Part shown: piece by piece, positions 12,120 to 20,900 of the stretch
Position numbering within the stretch: the first letter of the stretch is position 1
Layout: each line of letters opens with the position of its first letter
Assembly (NCBI RefSeq): GCF_012163145.1
Contig: NZ_JAAVTX010000006.1
Coordinates: 558,001 to 622,000, forward strand
Origin: Falsiroseomonas frigidaquae
Lineage (GTDB): Bacteria > Pseudomonadota > Alphaproteobacteria > Acetobacterales > Acetobacteraceae
Direction of reading: 5' to 3'
DNA: 64,000 bases
Position numbers and translations under genes: made by a program
The notes under the pieces: model-generated
Database searches by the model: none
Told to the model about the DNA's origin: nothing
The model's input: only the letters and a program-made list of their open reading frames with translations

Positions 12120-12144
12120 ACCCCCGCACATCCGGAGGTATCAC

Positions 12145-13353
12145 ATGGCGGGCTTTCTCAGCGATCTTCGGGTGGTGGAAGTCTCCGCCTTCATCGCGGC
12201 GCCGATCGGCGGGATGACGCTGGCGCAGATGGGGGCGGAGGTGATCCGCATCGACCCGATCGGCGGCAACATCGACTACCGCCGCTGGCCGCTGGCCCCC
12301 ACCGGCACCTCCCTCTACTGGACCGGCCTCAACAAATCTAAGCGCAGCGTGGCGCTGGCCCTGCACAAGCCGGAGGGGCGGGAGATTGCCCGCGCGCTGA
12401 TATGTGCCCCCGGCGAGGGCAAGGGAATCCTCCTGACCAACCTGCCGGCCAGCGGATGGATGAGCCATGCGGAGCTTTCGAAGCACCGCGAGGACCTGAT
12501 CATGCTGCGCCTGACCGGCAACCATGATGGCTCCGGCGCCGTGGACTACACGGTGAACTGCGCCAGCGGCTTCCCCACCGCGACGGGCCCCGGCGGCGAT
12601 CCGGTGAACCATGTGCTGCCGGCCTGGGACATCGCCGCGGGCCTGTACCTCGCCACCGGCCTGCTCGGCGCCGAACGCGCGCGCCGCCAGGATGGCCGCG
12701 GCCGGGAAGTCACGCTGGCGCTGTCGGATGTGATGCTCGCCTCGGTCGCGACGCTCGGCTACGTCGCCGATGTGCAGGTGAATGATTCGGTGCGCCCGGC
12801 CATGGGCAACGACCTGTATGGCGCCTGGGGCCGCGATTTCCCGACCAGGGATGGCCGCCGCGTGATGGTCTGCGCCATCTCCAACCGGCAATGGCAGGCG
12901 GTGGGCAAGGCGACGGGCCTGACGGACAAGATCGCCATGATCGGCCCGATGCTGGACGTGGACCTGAACGACGAGGGCGGCAGGTTCGAGGCGCGCCACG
13001 CCATCAATGCCGTGCTCGCCCCCTGGTTCGCCAGGCACACGCTGGCCGAGATCGGCGAGGCCTTCGCCGGCACCGGCGTGCTGTGGGGCCCCTACCAGGA
13101 TTTCGGGCAGTTGGTGCGGGAGGATGCGCGGTGCTCGACCGCCAACCCGATGTTCACCACCATCGCGCAGACTGGCGTCGGCGAGATCCTGGCGCCCGCC
13201 GTGCCGCTCGGCTTCGCCGAACGCGCGCCCGCCGCGCCGGCGCCCCGGCTCGGCGAACATACCGAGCAGGTGCTGGCGGAAGTGCTCGGCCTCACCACCT
13301 GCGCAATCGGCAAGCTGCATGACGCCGGCACCATAGCCGGCCCGAAGGAGTGA
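12145..13353 (+). CDS. mct: CaiB/BaiF CoA-transferase family protein, probable 2-methylfumaryl-CoA isomerase
   Basis: 402 residues from ATG 12145, with CGGAGG 9 bp upstream. Family III CoA-transferase fold; the catalytic Asp corresponds to Asp162 in HVLPAWDIAAG. From memory, stretches such as GGMTLAQMGAEVIRIDPIGG, YRRWPL, GLNKSKRS, VDYTVN and the C-terminal RLGEHTEQVLAEVLGL are close to Chloroflexus Mct, which moves CoA intramolecularly between C1 and C4 of mesaconate (2-methylfumaryl-CoA to 3-methylfumaryl-CoA). The following gene makes 2-methylfumaryl-CoA, supporting that role. It could instead be an intermolecular CoA-transferase. The mcd start follows within 6 bp of the stop. Confidence 0.78.
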   Translation: MAGFLSDLRVVEVSAFIAAPIGGMTLAQMGAEVIRIDPIGGNIDYRRWPLAPTGTSLYWTGLNKSKRSVALALHKPEGREIARALICAPGEGKGILLTNLPASGWMSHAELSKHREDLIMLRLTGNHDGSGAVDYTVNCASGFPTATGPGGDPVNHVLPAWDIAAGLYLATGLLGAERARRQDGRGREVTLALSDVMLASVATLGYVADVQVNDSVRPAMGNDLYGAWGRDFPTRDGRRVMVCAISNRQWQAVGKATGLTDKIAMIGPMLDVDLNDEGGRFEARHAINAVLAPWFARHTLAEIGEAFAGTGVLWGPYQDFGQLVREDARCSTANPMFTTIAQTGVGEILAPAVPLGFAERAPAAPAPRLGEHTEQVLAEVLGLTTCAIGKLHDAGTIAGPKE

Positions 13354-13358
13354 TACGG

Positions 13359-15032
13359 ATGGACCAGATCGTGGCCAACACCAGCAACGCCCGCGACCTG
13401 CTCGCCCGCGCCTCCGCCGGCCTGGACGCCGCCGAGCGCCTGCATGAGGTGACGCGCGCCGCGCTCGCCGCGCTGCTCGCCCCCCAGGGCAAGGTCAGCG
13501 GCGCCCTGCTCGAGCGCCACCAACTGGCCGGCCATGGCCTCGCCTGGCAGGCCACCTATGTGGCGGCGTTGCGGGAGACGCTGCGCTGGGCGGAGCGGCT
13601 GGACCAGGCCGGGCGCTTCGGCGCCACCGAACAGGCCATCCTGCATCTCGGCTTCGCGGAATACCTGGCGCAGCTCGCCGGCGGCATCCCGATGAGCCAG
13701 GCGGAGATCATCCGCCCGGCCGACATGGGCGTTCCGGCCGAGGCACTGGCCCGCTTCCAGGCCGAGCCGGCGCTGGCCGCGCTGTCCGACCTGGCGGCAC
13801 TGGATGCGGCGCGCCGCCTGCTGGCGAAATCCGCCACCGAGAACCAGCTCGGCGCCGACCATCTGGAGGATGAGATGCTGGAGGCGACGCAGGCCACCTT
13901 CCTGCGCTTCGCCGCCGCCGAGATCGAGCCCTTCGCCCAGGCCTGGCACCGCAACGACGAGCTGATCCCGATCGAGACCGTGGCCAAGCTGGCCGAGATG
14001 GGCGTGTTCGGCCTGACGGTGCCGGAGGAACATGGCGGCCTCGGCCTCGGCAAGGTGGCGATGTGCCTGGTGTCGGAGGCGCTGTCCGGCGCCTATCTCG
14101 GCGTCGGCTCGCTCGGCACGCGGTCCGAGATCGCGGCCGAGCTGATCCGCCTGGCCGGCACGCCGGAGCAGCAGCAGAAGTTCCTGGCCGGCATCGCCAG
14201 TGGCGAGATCCTGCCGACGGCGGTGTTCACGGAACCGGACACCGGCTCCGACCTCGGCAGCCTGCGGACCCGTGCGGTGCGCGTCGGCGACGTCTACAAG
14301 GTATATGGCGCGAAGACCTGGATCACCCACGGCGCGCGGTCCGACCTGATGACGCTGATGGTCCGCACCGACCCGGATGCGCCGGGCTACCAGGGCCTGT
14401 CCATGCTGCTGGCGGAAAAGCCGCGCGGCACGGACGGCAACCCCTTTCCCGCCGAGGGCATGGGCGGCACCGAGATTCCCGTGCTCGGCTACCGCGGCAT
14501 GAAGGAATACGAGATCTTCTTCGATGGCTTCGAGGTGCCGGTCGCCAACCTGCTGGGCGGCGTCGAGGGGCGCGGCTTCAAGCAGCTGATGGAGACCTTC
14601 GAAAGCGCCCGGATCCAGACCGCCGCGCGGGCGCTGGGCGTGGCGCGCAACGCCATCGAGCACGGCGCCTACTACGCCGCGGGCCGCAACCAGTTCGGCA
14701 AGACCATCCAGCATTTCCCGCGTGTCTACGGCAAGCTGGCCTGGATGGTGGCGGAGACGATGATGGCCCGCCAGCTCACCTACTTCGCCGCGCGGCAGAA
14801 GGACGCCGACCGGCGCTGCGACATCGAGGCCGGCATGGCCAAGCTGCTCGCGGCGCGCGTCGCCTGGTCCAATGCGGATTGCTCGCTGCAGATCCATGGC
14901 GGCAACGGCTATGCGCTGGAATACGGCATCAGCCGCCTGCTGTGCGACGCGCGCATCCTGTCGATCTTCGAGGGTGCGGCGGAGATCCAGGCGCAGGTGA
15001 TCGTGCGCGGCATGCTCGGCCGGATCAACTGA
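13359..15032 (+). CDS. mcd: (2S)-methylsuccinyl-CoA dehydrogenase
   Basis: 557 residues from ATG 13359; GTG 13350 is an alternative overlapping the previous stop. Longer than ordinary acyl-CoA dehydrogenases because of an N-terminal extension of about 150 residues (GKVSGALLERHQLAGHGLAW), a feature of Mcd. The acyl-CoA dehydrogenase domains follow: LTVPEEHGGLGLGKVAMCL, EPDTGSDLGS, NQFGKTIQHFPRVYGKLAWM, and the catalytic-base region ILSIFEGAAEIQ. Mcd oxidises methylsuccinyl-CoA to mesaconyl-C1-CoA in the ethylmalonyl-CoA pathway for acetate assimilation. Coupled to the mct-like gene. Confidence 0.88.
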   Translation: MDQIVANTSNARDLLARASAGLDAAERLHEVTRAALAALLAPQGKVSGALLERHQLAGHGLAWQATYVAALRETLRWAERLDQAGRFGATEQAILHLGFAEYLAQLAGGIPMSQAEIIRPADMGVPAEALARFQAEPALAALSDLAALDAARRLLAKSATENQLGADHLEDEMLEATQATFLRFAAAEIEPFAQAWHRNDELIPIETVAKLAEMGVFGLTVPEEHGGLGLGKVAMCLVSEALSGAYLGVGSLGTRSEIAAELIRLAGTPEQQQKFLAGIASGEILPTAVFTEPDTGSDLGSLRTRAVRVGDVYKVYGAKTWITHGARSDLMTLMVRTDPDAPGYQGLSMLLAEKPRGTDGNPFPAEGMGGTEIPVLGYRGMKEYEIFFDGFEVPVANLLGGVEGRGFKQLMETFESARIQTAARALGVARNAIEHGAYYAAGRNQFGKTIQHFPRVYGKLAWMVAETMMARQLTYFAARQKDADRRCDIEAGMAKLLAARVAWSNADCSLQIHGGNGYALEYGISRLLCDARILSIFEGAAEIQAQVIVRGMLGRIN

Positions 15033-17723: not shown

Positions 17724-18455
17724 ATGCCCTTCGAATACCTGATCCTGCTCGGCGGCTGCTTCGTCGCGGCCTTCGCTTCCGGCATGGCCGGCTTCGCCTT
17801 CAACCTGGTGGCCGCCGGCATCCTGTTCCACTGGCTGCCGCCGCAGCAGACGGCGCCCGTGCTGGTGGTGGGCTCGCTGATGATCCAGCTCGCCACGCTG
17901 GGCGCGATATGGCCGGCGGTGCGCTGGCAGGTGCTGCGGCCCTACATCATCGGCGGGCTGCTCGGCACGCCGGTCGGGGTGCTGCTGCTGGCGCGGGTAG
18001 ATCCGGGCGCGGTCGCCGCCGGAGTCGGGCTGCTGCTGGTGGGCTACTCGTCCTGGGCGCTGATCGGCATCGCCCGCGCGCGACCCGCCGGTTCGATGCA
18101 GGCGGGGGTCTCGGCGGATGCCACGGTGGGCTTCGCCAGCGGCATCCTGGGCGGACTCGGCGGCTTCTCCGGCCCGCTGCTGGCGATGTGGGGGGATCTG
18201 AAGGGGGTGCGGAAGGATGAAGGGCGGGCAATCTACCAGCCCTTCATCGTGGCGATGCAGATGGCCGCCGCGGTCGGCCTGCTGGCCGGCGGCTTCTTCG
18301 GGCAGGAAAGTGCGCGCATGCTGCTGGTGGCGCTGCCGGCCCTGGCGCTGGGCGGCTGGCTTGGCGTCATCGCCTATCGCTGGATTCCGGCGCAGGGCTT
18401 CCGGCTGGTGTTGCTGGGGCTGCTGCTGGCCTCCGGCCTTTCGCTGTTGCTGTGA
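17724..18455 (+). CDS. sulfite exporter TauE/SafE family permease
   Basis: 243 residues from ATG 17724, with about eight hydrophobic helices and the duplicated TauE/SafE pattern (ASGMAGFAFNLVAAGILFHW in the first half, ASGILGGLGGFSGPLLAMWG in the second). Family members export sulfite, sulfoacetate or related anions or import substrates such as taurine. It diverges from the ThDP enzyme gene across 139 bp, so a link to that enzyme's substrate is possible; it could equally go with the downstream rhodanese/chromate genes. Confidence 0.82.
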   Translation: MPFEYLILLGGCFVAAFASGMAGFAFNLVAAGILFHWLPPQQTAPVLVVGSLMIQLATLGAIWPAVRWQVLRPYIIGGLLGTPVGVLLLARVDPGAVAAGVGLLLVGYSSWALIGIARARPAGSMQAGVSADATVGFASGILGGLGGFSGPLLAMWGDLKGVRKDEGRAIYQPFIVAMQMAAAVGLLAGGFFGQESARMLLVALPALALGGWLGVIAYRWIPAQGFRLVLLGLLLASGLSLLL

Positions 18456-18469
18456 GGGAGCTGCCGGGC

Positions 18470-18592
18470 ATGAAGCTGATCATCCTGTTTTTCTTCCTGG
18501 CCGCTCTGCCGGCCCTGGGGCAGCCCGCCGGCCCACCGCCGCAGGAAGATTGCGGCTGCGGCGTGCCGAGTTCGCCGCGCGGCCCGCGCTGA
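18470..18592 (+). CDS. short secreted Cys-containing peptide, 40 aa
   Basis: A short ORF from ATG 18470 to TGA 18592, 14 bp after the TauE stop and preceded by GAGGGAG. Residues 1-19 look like a signal peptide (MKLIIL then FFFLAALPALGQ), followed by Pro-rich sequence and the motif DCGCG. No family recognised. The hydrophobic N-terminus, ribosome site and operon-like spacing support it; the short length leaves doubt. Confidence 0.45.
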   Translation: MKLIILFFFLAALPALGQPAGPPPQEDCGCGVPSSPRGPR

Positions 18593-18753
18593 GGCAACGC
18601 GGCGCGCCGGTTGACCGGCACGACCGGCCAATCCTAGTCTCCGCCCGGGGCCACCGCGATCGCCCCATCAGTCACCTGCCCGGCCACCCTCAGTCACGGG
18701 CCAGGCATGTGCCCAAGCATCGCGTCCAACCACCCGCCAGGGAGTGGACGCCC

Positions 18754-19569
18754 ATGCCTGAGTTACCTTCGATCAAACCCGATGATCTCGCCCGCAGGAT
18801 CGGCCTCGCTGATGCGCCGCTGCTGGTCGATGTGCGGCTGGCAGAGGATGCCGCCGCGGATCCACGCAGCCTGCCCGCGGCGCGGCGCCAGGACCATCGC
18901 CAGATCACCGCCTGGGCGCCGGCACAGCGGGGCCGTGAGGTGGTCGTCATCTGCCAGCGCGGGCTGAAGCTTTCCGAAGGCGCAGCCGCCTGGCTTCGGC
19001 ACGAGGGCGCGGAGGCCAGGGTGCTGGAAGGCGGCTTCGAGGCTTGGCGCGCCGCCGGACTTCCGCTGTTCCGGGACGCGCCGCTGCCGCCACCCGACGC
19101 GGCGGGCCGCACGCTATGGGTCACCAGGGCGCGGCCGAAGGTGGACCGCATCGCCTGCCCCTGGCTGATCAGGCGCTTCATCGACCGCGAGGCGGTGTTC
19201 CTGTTCGTCGCGGCGTCGGAGGTCGCTGCCGTCGCCGCCCATTACGGCGCGACGCCCTTCGACATCGACGGCGTGTTCTGGAGCCATCGCGGCGAGACCT
19301 GCACCTTCGACACGATGCTGGCCGAATTCGGCTTGGCAAGCCCGGCCCTGCAGCGCCTGGCGCTGCTGGTGCGCGGCGCCGATACGGCGCGGCCCGACCT
19401 GGCACCGGAAGCAGCCGGGCTGCTGGCCGCGTCGCTCGGCCTGTCCCGGCTGCATGGCGACGACCTGGCGCAGCTCGATGCCGGATTGTCGCTCTATGAC
19501 GCCTTCTATTTGTGGTGCCGCGATGCCACAGGGGAGACTCACAATTGGCCGGCCCAGGGACTCACCTGA
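18754..19569 (+). CDS. chrB: rhodanese-ChrB domain chromate resistance protein
   Basis: 271 residues from ATG 18754 with AGGGAG upstream. N-terminal rhodanese domain (about 10-115) with the active-site Cys loop ICQRGLKLSEG and the EGGFEAWRAAGLP end motif; C-terminal ChrB domain (about 130-270) with KVDRIACPWLIRRFIDREAV and FDTMLAEFGLA. ChrB-domain proteins act in chromate resistance, as regulators or chromate-handling proteins; the fused sulfurtransferase domain points to sulfur chemistry. Its TGA overlaps the chrA ATG, so the two are translationally coupled. Confidence 0.87.
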   Translation: MPELPSIKPDDLARRIGLADAPLLVDVRLAEDAAADPRSLPAARRQDHRQITAWAPAQRGREVVVICQRGLKLSEGAAAWLRHEGAEARVLEGGFEAWRAAGLPLFRDAPLPPPDAAGRTLWVTRARPKVDRIACPWLIRRFIDREAVFLFVAASEVAAVAAHYGATPFDIDGVFWSHRGETCTFDTMLAEFGLASPALQRLALLVRGADTARPDLAPEAAGLLAASLGLSRLHGDDLAQLDAGLSLYDAFYLWCRDATGETHNWPAQGLT

Positions 19570-20900
19570 TGGACATGCCGCAGCGCGCGGATTTTCCCAC
19601 CCTTCGCGCGGCGATGCGCGTCTGGCTGCGTATCGGCCTGCTGTCCTTCGGCGGCCCCGCCGCGCAGATCGCGCTGATGCACCGGGAGGTGGTGGAGCAG
19701 CACCGCTGGATCTCGGATGCGCGATTCCTGCACGCGCTGAATTTCTGCATGCTGCTGCCGGGGCCGGAGGCGCAGCAACTGGCCACCTATCTCGGCTGGC
19801 TGATGCATGGCGTGCGCGGCGGGCTGGTGGCGGGGCTGCTGTTCATCCTGCCGGGCGCGGCGGTGATGCTGGCGCTGTCGGTGCTGTATGTCACGCTCGG
19901 CGCCGTGCCGCTGGTGGCGGCGCTGTTCTTCGGCCTGAAATGCGCCGTGCTGGTGGTGGTGGTGGAAGCCCTGCTGCGCGTGGCGAAGCGCGCGCTGCGC
20001 GGCCCCCTGCCCTGGGCGCTGGCGGTGGCCGCCTTCCTCGCGCTTTTCGCGCTGGACCTGCCCTTCCCCATCGTGGTGCTGGCGGCGGCGGCCATCGGCT
20101 ACGCGCTGCCGCATGCATTCAACGGAACCGGCCACGGCGATGCCCGGGACGGCCCGCCGGCCTTGCTGGATGCGTTGATCCTGCAGGACCCGGACCGCAT
20201 TCCCCGCATGGCCCGCCGGGCGCGCACGGCGGGCCTGGTGGCGCTGGCGCTCTGGGCCTGGCCGGTGGCGCTGCTGATGGGAAGCGCGCCCTGGGGCGAC
20301 GTCGCCTGGTTTTTCTCGAAGATGGCGGTGGTCACCTTCGGCGGCGCCTATGCCGTGCTGGCCTATGTCGCGCAGGAGGCGGTGGAGAATTACGGCTGGC
20401 TGACGGCCGCGGATATGCTGGCCGGCCTCGGCCTGGCGGAGACCACGCCCGGCCCGCTGATCCTGGTGCTGCAATTCGTCGGCTTCCTGGCGGGCCACGG
20501 TGGACACGGGCTGTGGGGCGGGGTTCTGGCCTCCCTGCTCGCACTCTGGGTCACCTTCGCACCCTGCTTCGCCTGGATCTTCCTCGGCGCGCCCTTCGTC
20601 GAGAGGCTGCATGCGGAGCCGCGACTGAAGGCGGCGCTGGCCGGGGTGACCGCGGCGGTGGTCGGCGTGATTGCGAACCTGGCGCTGTGGTTCGGCCTGC
20701 GGGTGATCTTCGCGCGGGTCGAGGCCACCAGCCTCGGCCCGCTCCGGCTGGACCTGCCCGATGCGACCAGCCTGCAGCCGGATGCGCTGCTGCTGAGCGT
20801 GCTGGCGGCCGCCTGCCTGTTCGGCCTGAAGCTCGGCCTGCTGCGGACGCTGGGCATCACCGCCGCGGCGGGGTTCCTGATGCGGGCGATGCTGGGCTGA
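19569..20900 (+). CDS. chrA: chromate transporter ChrA
   Basis: 443 residues from ATG 19569, overlapping the previous stop as TGATG. Two homologous CHR domains: residues about 10-190 with LLSFGGPAAQIALMHREVVE and LPGPEAQQLATYLGW, and about 220-440 with MAVVTFGGAYAVLAYVAQEA and ETTPGPLILVLQFVGFLAG. ChrA exports chromate or, in some cases, sulfate-like anions across the inner membrane. The coupling to the rhodanese-ChrB gene supports a chromate detoxification unit. Confidence 0.93.
   Translation: MDMPQRADFPTLRAAMRVWLRIGLLSFGGPAAQIALMHREVVEQHRWISDARFLHALNFCMLLPGPEAQQLATYLGWLMHGVRGGLVAGLLFILPGAAVMLALSVLYVTLGAVPLVAALFFGLKCAVLVVVVEALLRVAKRALRGPLPWALAVAAFLALFALDLPFPIVVLAAAAIGYALPHAFNGTGHGDARDGPPALLDALILQDPDRIPRMARRARTAGLVALALWAWPVALLMGSAPWGDVAWFFSKMAVVTFGGAYAVLAYVAQEAVENYGWLTAADMLAGLGLAETTPGPLILVLQFVGFLAGHGGHGLWGGVLASLLALWVTFAPCFAWIFLGAPFVERLHAEPRLKAALAGVTAAVVGVIANLALWFGLRVIFARVEATSLGPLRLDLPDATSLQPDALLLSVLAAACLFGLKLGLLRTLGITAAAGFLMRAMLG

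Follow-up and report, generated by a model that had tools for sequence, protein, structure and literature searches.

We analysed a gene pair in a 64,000-nucleotide stretch of the Falsiroseomonas frigidaquae genome (contig NZ_JAAVTX010000006.1, positions 558,001 to 622,000; this whole stretch is hereafter the window), in which a gene for a family III coenzyme A (CoA) transferase resembling mesaconyl-C1-CoA : mesaconyl-C4-CoA CoA transferase (Mct) is followed by mcd, encoding a predicted methylsuccinyl-CoA dehydrogenase (Mcd) (Table 1). The genome comprises 6.08 Mb in 19 contigs and is 97.9% complete. The Mct-like reading frame ends with a TGA stop codon at 13351–13353 and, as the original prediction had reported, mcd follows on the same strand after only 5 bp (13354–13358). 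The start of Mcd was placed at the ATG at 13359, with an in-frame GTG at 13350 as a possible alternative. The 5-bp spacer and the AAGGAG motif preceding mcd suggest that the two genes form a two-gene unit. The pair is genuine and conserved. Among the best 80 of at least 560 relatives, the closest named locus belongs to a Falsiroseomonas metagenome-assembled genome (MAG), with 97% identity over the Mct-like protein.

Table 1. Features of the gene pair and of two clusters elsewhere in the same genome (positions refer to the window)
Feature	Position	Strand	Basis
Ribosome-binding-site-like GGAGG before the Mct-like gene	12134..12138	+	By eye
Mct-like family III CoA transferase, 402 aa	12145..13353	+	Open reading frame, PDB matches, residues, tree; activity predicted
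Ribosome-binding-site-like AAGGAG at the end of the Mct-like gene, before mcd	13345..13350	+	By eye
Mcd, predicted (2S)-methylsuccinyl-C1-CoA dehydrogenase with N-terminal extension, 557 aa	13359..15032	+	PDB match, residues
L121 cluster, contig C12: hydratase, family III CoA transferase, TctC gene, lyase; LysR gene adjoining			
L122 cluster, contig C13: TctC gene, hydratase, family III CoA transferase, lyase; IclR gene adjoining			

Identity of the transferase and the dehydrogenase

The best PDB matches of the Mct-like protein were the Mct enzymes of Roseiflexus (7xkg; 488 bits, 56% identity) and Chloroflexus (8apq; 482 bits, 55% identity), and the next match, the intermolecular transferase SUGCT, reached only 91 bits. 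Tree construction likewise grouped the window protein with Mct and away from three other family III transferases, two of them from its own genome. The resemblance to Chloroflexus Mct that had been proposed for this gene is confirmed by these results, and its closest characterised relatives are Mct enzymes, not intermolecular CoA transferases.

Residues were compared in an alignment of 83 Mct-family rows (41 from the window's group and 42 others, in Chloroflexus numbering), from which L044, L060, L062, L063, and L116 were left out for a stop codon in the translated match (most likely from matches extending beyond the gene end) and L125–L129 as duplicates. Asp165, Arg47, Asn100, Asp135, and Tyr136 were invariant in all 83 rows, with the catalytic Asp165 corresponding to Asp162 in the window protein. 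Position 43 was occupied by Leu or Ile in 81 rows (Ile43 in the window protein), whereas SUGCT and Frc carry Asp at 43 and Thr/Gly at 47 in printed alignments inspected by eye. According to passages of PMC9813914, Ile43 and Arg47 narrow and lock the Mct site, and Leu/Ile43 is conserved in intramolecular enzymes. The window protein is most likely an intramolecular mesaconyl-C1-CoA : mesaconyl-C4-CoA CoA transferase, as predicted from these residues and matches.

Compared with the Chloroflexi enzymes, it shares the catalytic Asp, Arg47, Tyr136, Asn100, and the narrowing Ile43 at 55–56% overall identity, but it lies across a branch with 100/99 support that splits the window's group from the 42 other Mct rows, including those of Chloroflexi, and it differs at cork positions 74, 75, 101, and 104. 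It also scored 490.6 bits with NCBIfam model TIGR04253, below the curated cut-off of 725 bits. Among ten other Mct-family proteins scanned with this model, nine fell below 725 bits (L105, 545.6 bits), and only that of Roseiflexus L084 passed (870.6 bits). In view of the altered cork, the window protein is termed Mct-like rather than an Mct orthologue.

For the window Mcd, the best PDB match was the Paracoccus denitrificans enzyme (6es9, 637 bits), aligned over residues 10–553 with the N-terminal extension included, and the original description of a long-form Mcd is upheld. Active-site and near-site positions were taken from passages of PMC5798300, which tie Ala285, Phe287, and three arginines to methylsuccinyl-CoA binding. 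The window Mcd, the only one in its genome at E ≤ 1e-70, keeps all 12 positions checked; among these are both residues of the methyl pocket (Ala285 and Phe287), the three arginines, and the catalytic Glu535. All 12 were also kept in 47 of 51 dehydrogenase rows (L138 was left out for a stop codon in the translated match), the exceptions being the plasmid rows L118–L120 and L074, the last of which is a short acyl-CoA dehydrogenase. A single origin of the Mct-linked Mcd proteins is not claimed, as a quick tree (made without L074, L118, L119, and L135) needs several changes and its root falls on a very long outgroup branch.

The plasmid loci L118, L119, and L120 (Variovorax SRS16, Paraburkholderia D15, and pAKD34, respectively) place Mct beside a long Mcd-like dehydrogenase whose methyl pocket reads Ile/Ile instead of Ala285/Phe287, and the D15 locus also contains hydratase, CoA ester lyase, and electron-transfer flavoprotein (ETF)-like genes and a second CoA transferase. 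These plasmid clusters probably encode a related route for another diacid, judging from the replaced pocket. The D15 locus was considered as a complete methylsuccinate cluster and rejected, since its acyl-CoA dehydrogenase lacks the methyl pocket.

Conservation and gene context in relatives

The 80 relatives compared consisted of the 43 nearest loci (L035–L077, 56–97% by rank and no lower than 60% in any of them) and 37 others, and a long-form Mcd was called at ≥55% identity over 450 aa. Of the 43 nearest loci, 33 had such an Mcd on the same strand as Mct and less than 2.3 kb from it, more than expected by chance; of the 37 others, 3 had one. It was directly beside Mct in 26 of the 33 (overlapping in L039), upstream in L065 and downstream in the rest, and in seven Azospirillum loci it was found approximately 2.1–2.3 kb upstream of Mct, with a LysR regulator gene and a short-chain dehydrogenase/reductase gene between the two in the loci inspected. 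In relatives, the pair is accompanied by DctP/TctC-type transporter and LysR regulator genes. The Mct of Roseiflexus L084 differs from the window protein in its surroundings, its neighbours being a lyase (Mcl) and mesaconyl-C1-CoA hydratase (Mch) instead of Mcd.

A paralogue of the E1 component of 2-oxoglutarate dehydrogenase (approximately 850–970 aa) was present in the cluster at 14 of the 43 loci and on two annotated Azospirillum plasmids, and many of these clusters also carried LysR and transporter genes. Nine of the E1 paralogues, from Azospirillum, Pseudoroseomonas, Bradyrhizobium, and Roseomonas (compared without L062 and L063), showed 52–94% mutual identity and 43–45% identity to SucA of the window genome, which has a single E1 only. 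All nine keep the positions of E. coli His260 and His298, which we take to bind the distal carboxylate, and the GPEHSSAR motif, with different surroundings of Ser302. The PF16078 N-terminal domain, presumably involved in E2 binding, was present in the E1 of L044, the one scanned. Two further proposals about these proteins were dropped: the E1 of L044 passed the NCBIfam cut-offs for 2-oxoglutarate dehydrogenase E1 (970 vs 764 and 827 vs 770 bits), so that the models do not set it apart from the ordinary enzyme, and assignment of the E1 neighbours in Belnapia and Bosea to the Azospirillum type was unsupported (44–48% identity, GPEHSSAR motif lost). The E1 paralogue hints at a methyl-branched 2-oxo acid as substrate; acting on 3-methyl-2-oxoglutarate it would yield methylsuccinyl-C1-CoA and on 4-methyl-2-oxoglutarate the C4 ester, either of which would fit Mcd and Mct.

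Within the window, the pair is flanked on the opposite strand by genes for an acyltransferase and a PNPOx-domain protein, with a ShlB-like protein, a thiamine pyrophosphate (TPP) enzyme, a TauE-family protein, a ChrB-like protein, and a chromate transporter farther away; none of these neighbours shows a visible link to the pair. The ChrB-like and chromate transporter genes (18217–20897) are a likely chromate-resistance pair.

Ethylmalonyl-CoA pathway genes and downstream enzymes

The original prediction had suggested the pair as a possible acetate-assimilation variant of the ethylmalonyl-CoA pathway, an idea that the gene content of the genome does not support. Crotonyl-CoA carboxylase/reductase (Ccr) was not found in the window genome, where the best match reached 92.2 bits and the cut-off is 378.55, so Mcd has no known supply from crotonyl-CoA. 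Mch was not found in it either, the L105 Mch query giving at best a 155-residue partial match of 30.5 bits and PF19315 giving none at E ≤ 1; no search was aimed at ethylmalonyl-CoA mutase (Ecm). The L105 query was validated by its matches to the PDB entries 4e3e (541 bits) and 8hgn (beta-methylmalyl-CoA dehydratase; 473 bits) and by positive controls of 490 bits in both Bosea genomes. Across 44 genomes, full-length Mch was found in four (the two Bosea, Roseiflexus L084, and L105), with the next best match at 71 bits. PF19315 at E ≤ 1e-20 was abandoned as a cross-genome test, because a real Mch reached only 53 bits and the Bosea genomes, with a 63–64% Mch, were negative. Of the 3-hydroxypropionate bi-cycle, the window genome gave no full-length Mch match, and neither Mcl nor Mch lies near its Mct-like gene, unlike in Roseiflexus L084. 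Searches for a full isocitrate lyase in the window genome returned only partial matches of 45–49 bits.

Ccr was similarly rare among Mct-bearing genomes. In a scan of 37 genomes of the window's group and four others (L037, L038, and L074–L077 lay outside it, the last four also outside the genome scans for Mch, PF19315, and the hydratase), it was absent from 37 of 41 (33 of 37 and 4 of 4, respectively) and present in the two Bosea genomes and the MAGs of L069 and L070. Both Bosea genomes, which have Ccr and Mch, carry a second Mcd, approximately 61% identical to that of the window and less than 5 kb from Ccr, on a different contig from the Mct-linked Mcd (71–74% identical to that of the window). 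These separate copies suggest that two functions are set apart within one cell.

In the L069 and L070 MAGs (loci L141 and L142), Mcd is located beside or near Ccr, a window-type Mct lies elsewhere, and a hydratase homologue is present, and L141, from the L069 genome, also has a methylmalonyl-CoA-mutase-family gene beside Ccr and Mcd. No full-length Mch match was obtained in either genome. From this gene content, these two lineages are candidates for a true ethylmalonyl-CoA/Mct hybrid.

Homologues of the C4 hydratase and citramalyl-CoA lyase that the original prediction would lead one to expect are present in the window genome, in the L121 and L122 clusters. The L121 hydratase was most similar in the PDB to itaconyl-CoA hydratase (8khg, 203 bits), and the L122 hydratase is 43% identical to the L121 one. 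For the L121 lyase, the highest PDB score (115 bits) was obtained with 3qll, a citrate lyase entry, and the acyl-CoA lyase 8khl scored 89 bits. The predicted diversion of flux away from Mch is thus borne out only in part: homologues for the downstream steps to acetyl-CoA and pyruvate exist, but no C1 hydratase was found from which flux could be diverted. The same genome gave 23 family III CoA transferase matches, some of them split between two places.

Hydratase and/or lyase homologues lie near Mct in five of the 43 nearest loci (L047, L052, L053, L074, and L076), and in Nitratireductor L106 the genes for Mcd, Mct, and a Meh-type hydratase directly follow one another. In the L052 and L053 loci (Azospirillum canadense and A. 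rugosum), a lyase, a Meh-like hydratase, a family III CoA transferase, and another acyl-CoA dehydrogenase are encoded on the strand opposite to mct-mcd, at a distance of a few kb; in L052, a DctP transporter gene lies in between.

Proposed role of the pair and competing explanations

We consider it probable, from the genes and residues described above, that the pair is a two-step methylsuccinyl-CoA catabolic module operating outside the ethylmalonyl-CoA pathway; the enzyme activities, the substrate, and the joint action of the genes are what we infer. Mcd would oxidise (2S)-methylsuccinyl-C1-CoA to mesaconyl-C1-CoA, passing electrons to ETF. Because no Mch was found in the genome, mesaconyl-C1-CoA would be a dead end there, and the Mct-like enzyme would shift CoA from C1 to C4 intramolecularly via an anhydride at Asp162. 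The itaconyl-CoA-hydratase-type enzyme would then hydrate mesaconyl-C4-CoA, and the CitE/Ccl-type lyase would cleave the product into acetyl-CoA and pyruvate; this end route through citramalyl-CoA is plausible, with the lyases putative for it. Methylsuccinyl-CoA may arise from methylsuccinate, activated by the family III CoA transferase of the L121 or L122 cluster, or from a methyl-branched 2-oxoglutarate via 2-oxoglutarate dehydrogenase, as the E1 paralogue of relatives suggests.

A wider proposal, which we put forward only tentatively and hold to be possible rather than probable, is an undescribed alphaproteobacterial pathway in Azospirillum, Bradyrhizobium, and Roseomonas relatives. Here, the dedicated E1 paralogue, together with the E2 and E3 of the cell, would turn 3- or 4-methyl-2-oxoglutarate into methylsuccinyl-CoA, Mcd would oxidise it, and the Mct-like enzyme would reposition CoA, perhaps on methylsuccinyl-CoA too, leading to acetyl-CoA and pyruvate. 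The window organism would have kept the Mcd-Mct core, with the first step carried out by the housekeeping dehydrogenase or by CoA transferases.

Several known systems resemble parts of this module. The window Mcd matches the Paracoccus enzyme in full length, N-terminal extension, and active site, but its gene neighbour is Mct and its genome gave neither Ccr nor Mch, in contrast to an Mcd of the ethylmalonyl-CoA pathway. In the itaconate-methylsuccinate cluster of pseudomonads and Cupriavidus, as described in passages of PMC12290011, the dehydrogenase is specific for the C4 ester, no Mct is needed, and methylsuccinyl-C1-CoA is called a dead end for C. necator. The end route given there (mesaconyl-C4-CoA, citramalyl-CoA, acetyl-CoA and pyruvate) is the one proposed here, and the hydratase, lyase, and CoA transferase clusters of the window genome are similarly composed to that cluster. 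Here, a C1-type Mcd combined with Mct would solve the C1 dead end. An intramolecular CoA transferase and an acyl-CoA dehydrogenase also share one operon in anaerobic naphthalene degradation (ThnO/ThnP, in passages of PMC11659651), but ThnP belongs to family I, acts before the dehydrogenase, and has a cyclohexane diacid as substrate. No description of an Mcd-Mct pair was found in the titles, abstract beginnings, and passages of open-licence literature, including passages of PMC6593406, PMC8262859, PMC8307300, and PMC11659651 and the outline and abstract of PMC9196870.

The following observations weigh against the proposed module. Ten of the 43 nearest loci have no Mcd nearby; in L058, L064, L071, L072, and L075, a contig end is close (<1.1 kb, or an otherwise short flank), but the flanks of L069, L070, L074, L076, and L077 extend for 4 kb or more in each direction. 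Mcd was found elsewhere in the genomes of L064, L069, L070, L071, and L072. The hydratase and lyase genes of the window organism do not share a contig with the pair, and both cluster lyases match the CitE and RipC/Ccl models below the curated cut-offs (L121 lyase: 158 vs 375 bits for RipC/Ccl and 160 vs 443 bits for CitE). A homologue of the L121 hydratase (E ≤ 1e-20) was detected in 36 of 42 genomes, its own included (L049, L061, L064, L071, L072, and L088 lacked a match), which speaks for the module, but the count stands without a background rate from Mct-less genomes. At 97.9% completeness, the absence of genes from the window genome falls short of proof. Finally, the cork residues, which seal in CoA in Chloroflexus Mct (Ile74, Arg75, Phe101, and Arg104), are Leu, His, Leu, and Ser in the window protein. 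Because the Mct of L105, located beside Mch and a Meh-type hydratase, also lacks the cork residues at 74, 75, and 104, these residues are probably not defining for Mct.

The altered cork bears most directly on the explanation that the transferase has a dual function, in which the loosened cork would allow it also to transfer CoA from succinyl-CoA to free methylsuccinate (or mesaconate); activation, oxidation, and re-positioning of the substrate would then take only two genes. Arg75 and Phe101 are replaced in all 41 rows of the window's group and mostly kept elsewhere (34 and 39 of 42 rows, respectively), and passages of PMC11659651 describe IaaL, a phenylsuccinyl-CoA transferase of family III, as capable of both inter- and intramolecular transfer; yet the Chloroflexus-side rows vary at 75 and 104 too, and the window protein keeps Ile43 and Arg47 where SUGCT and Frc differ, and we regard this explanation as unlikely. 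The plasmid clusters of Variovorax, Paraburkholderia D15, and pAKD34 demonstrate that an Mct can stand beside a dehydrogenase with another pocket, so the pairing can serve other substrates, and the window pair might merely resemble Mcd and Mct while acting on a different dicarboxyl-CoA. This is the least probable of the four alternatives, since the residues that passages of PMC5798300 link to methylsuccinyl-CoA binding (Ala285, Phe287, and the three arginines) are retained in the window Mcd.

A hybrid of the ethylmalonyl-CoA and 3-hydroxypropionate routes, in which crotonyl-CoA carboxylation feeds Mcd and Mct routes mesaconyl-CoA to acetyl-CoA and pyruvate instead of glyoxylate and propionyl-CoA, would account for the pairing and for the hydratase and lyase homologues, and with no full isocitrate lyase found some acetate route may be needed; the L069 and L070 genomes even combine Ccr, a nearby Mcd, and a related Mct. 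For the window organism, however, it is highly improbable given the lack of Ccr and Mch matches, the 37 of 41 Mct-bearing genomes without Ccr, and the separate Mcd that Bosea keeps near Ccr. When propionyl-CoA carboxylase and methylmalonyl-CoA mutase act on butyryl-CoA and ethylmalonyl-CoA in side reactions, methylsuccinyl-CoA is formed, and the pair could serve metabolite repair by clearing this product, with no growth substrate involved. The nearest window neighbours (acyltransferase, ShlB-like protein, PNPOx-domain protein, and TPP enzyme) include no regulator or dicarboxylate-type transporter, and 29 of the 43 loci show no E1 paralogue, as repair would allow; the transporter and regulator genes accompanying the pair in relatives resemble substrate use instead and make repair very unlikely.

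The presence of Mcd is commonly taken to indicate the ethylmalonyl-CoA pathway, and that of Mct ('2-methylfumaryl-CoA isomerase') the 3-hydroxypropionate bi-cycle. If the pair is a methylsuccinyl-CoA module as proposed, both marker genes would mislead in Azospirillum, Roseomonas, and their relatives, in which the pair would act in degrading a branched C5/C6 acid. The Mct-like transferases with altered cork residues would then provide a test set for the cork-up model. Furthermore, methylsuccinyl-C1-CoA, the dead end of C. necator, would be joined to acetyl-CoA and pyruvate, and Mct, so far tied to acetate assimilation, would have a second job.

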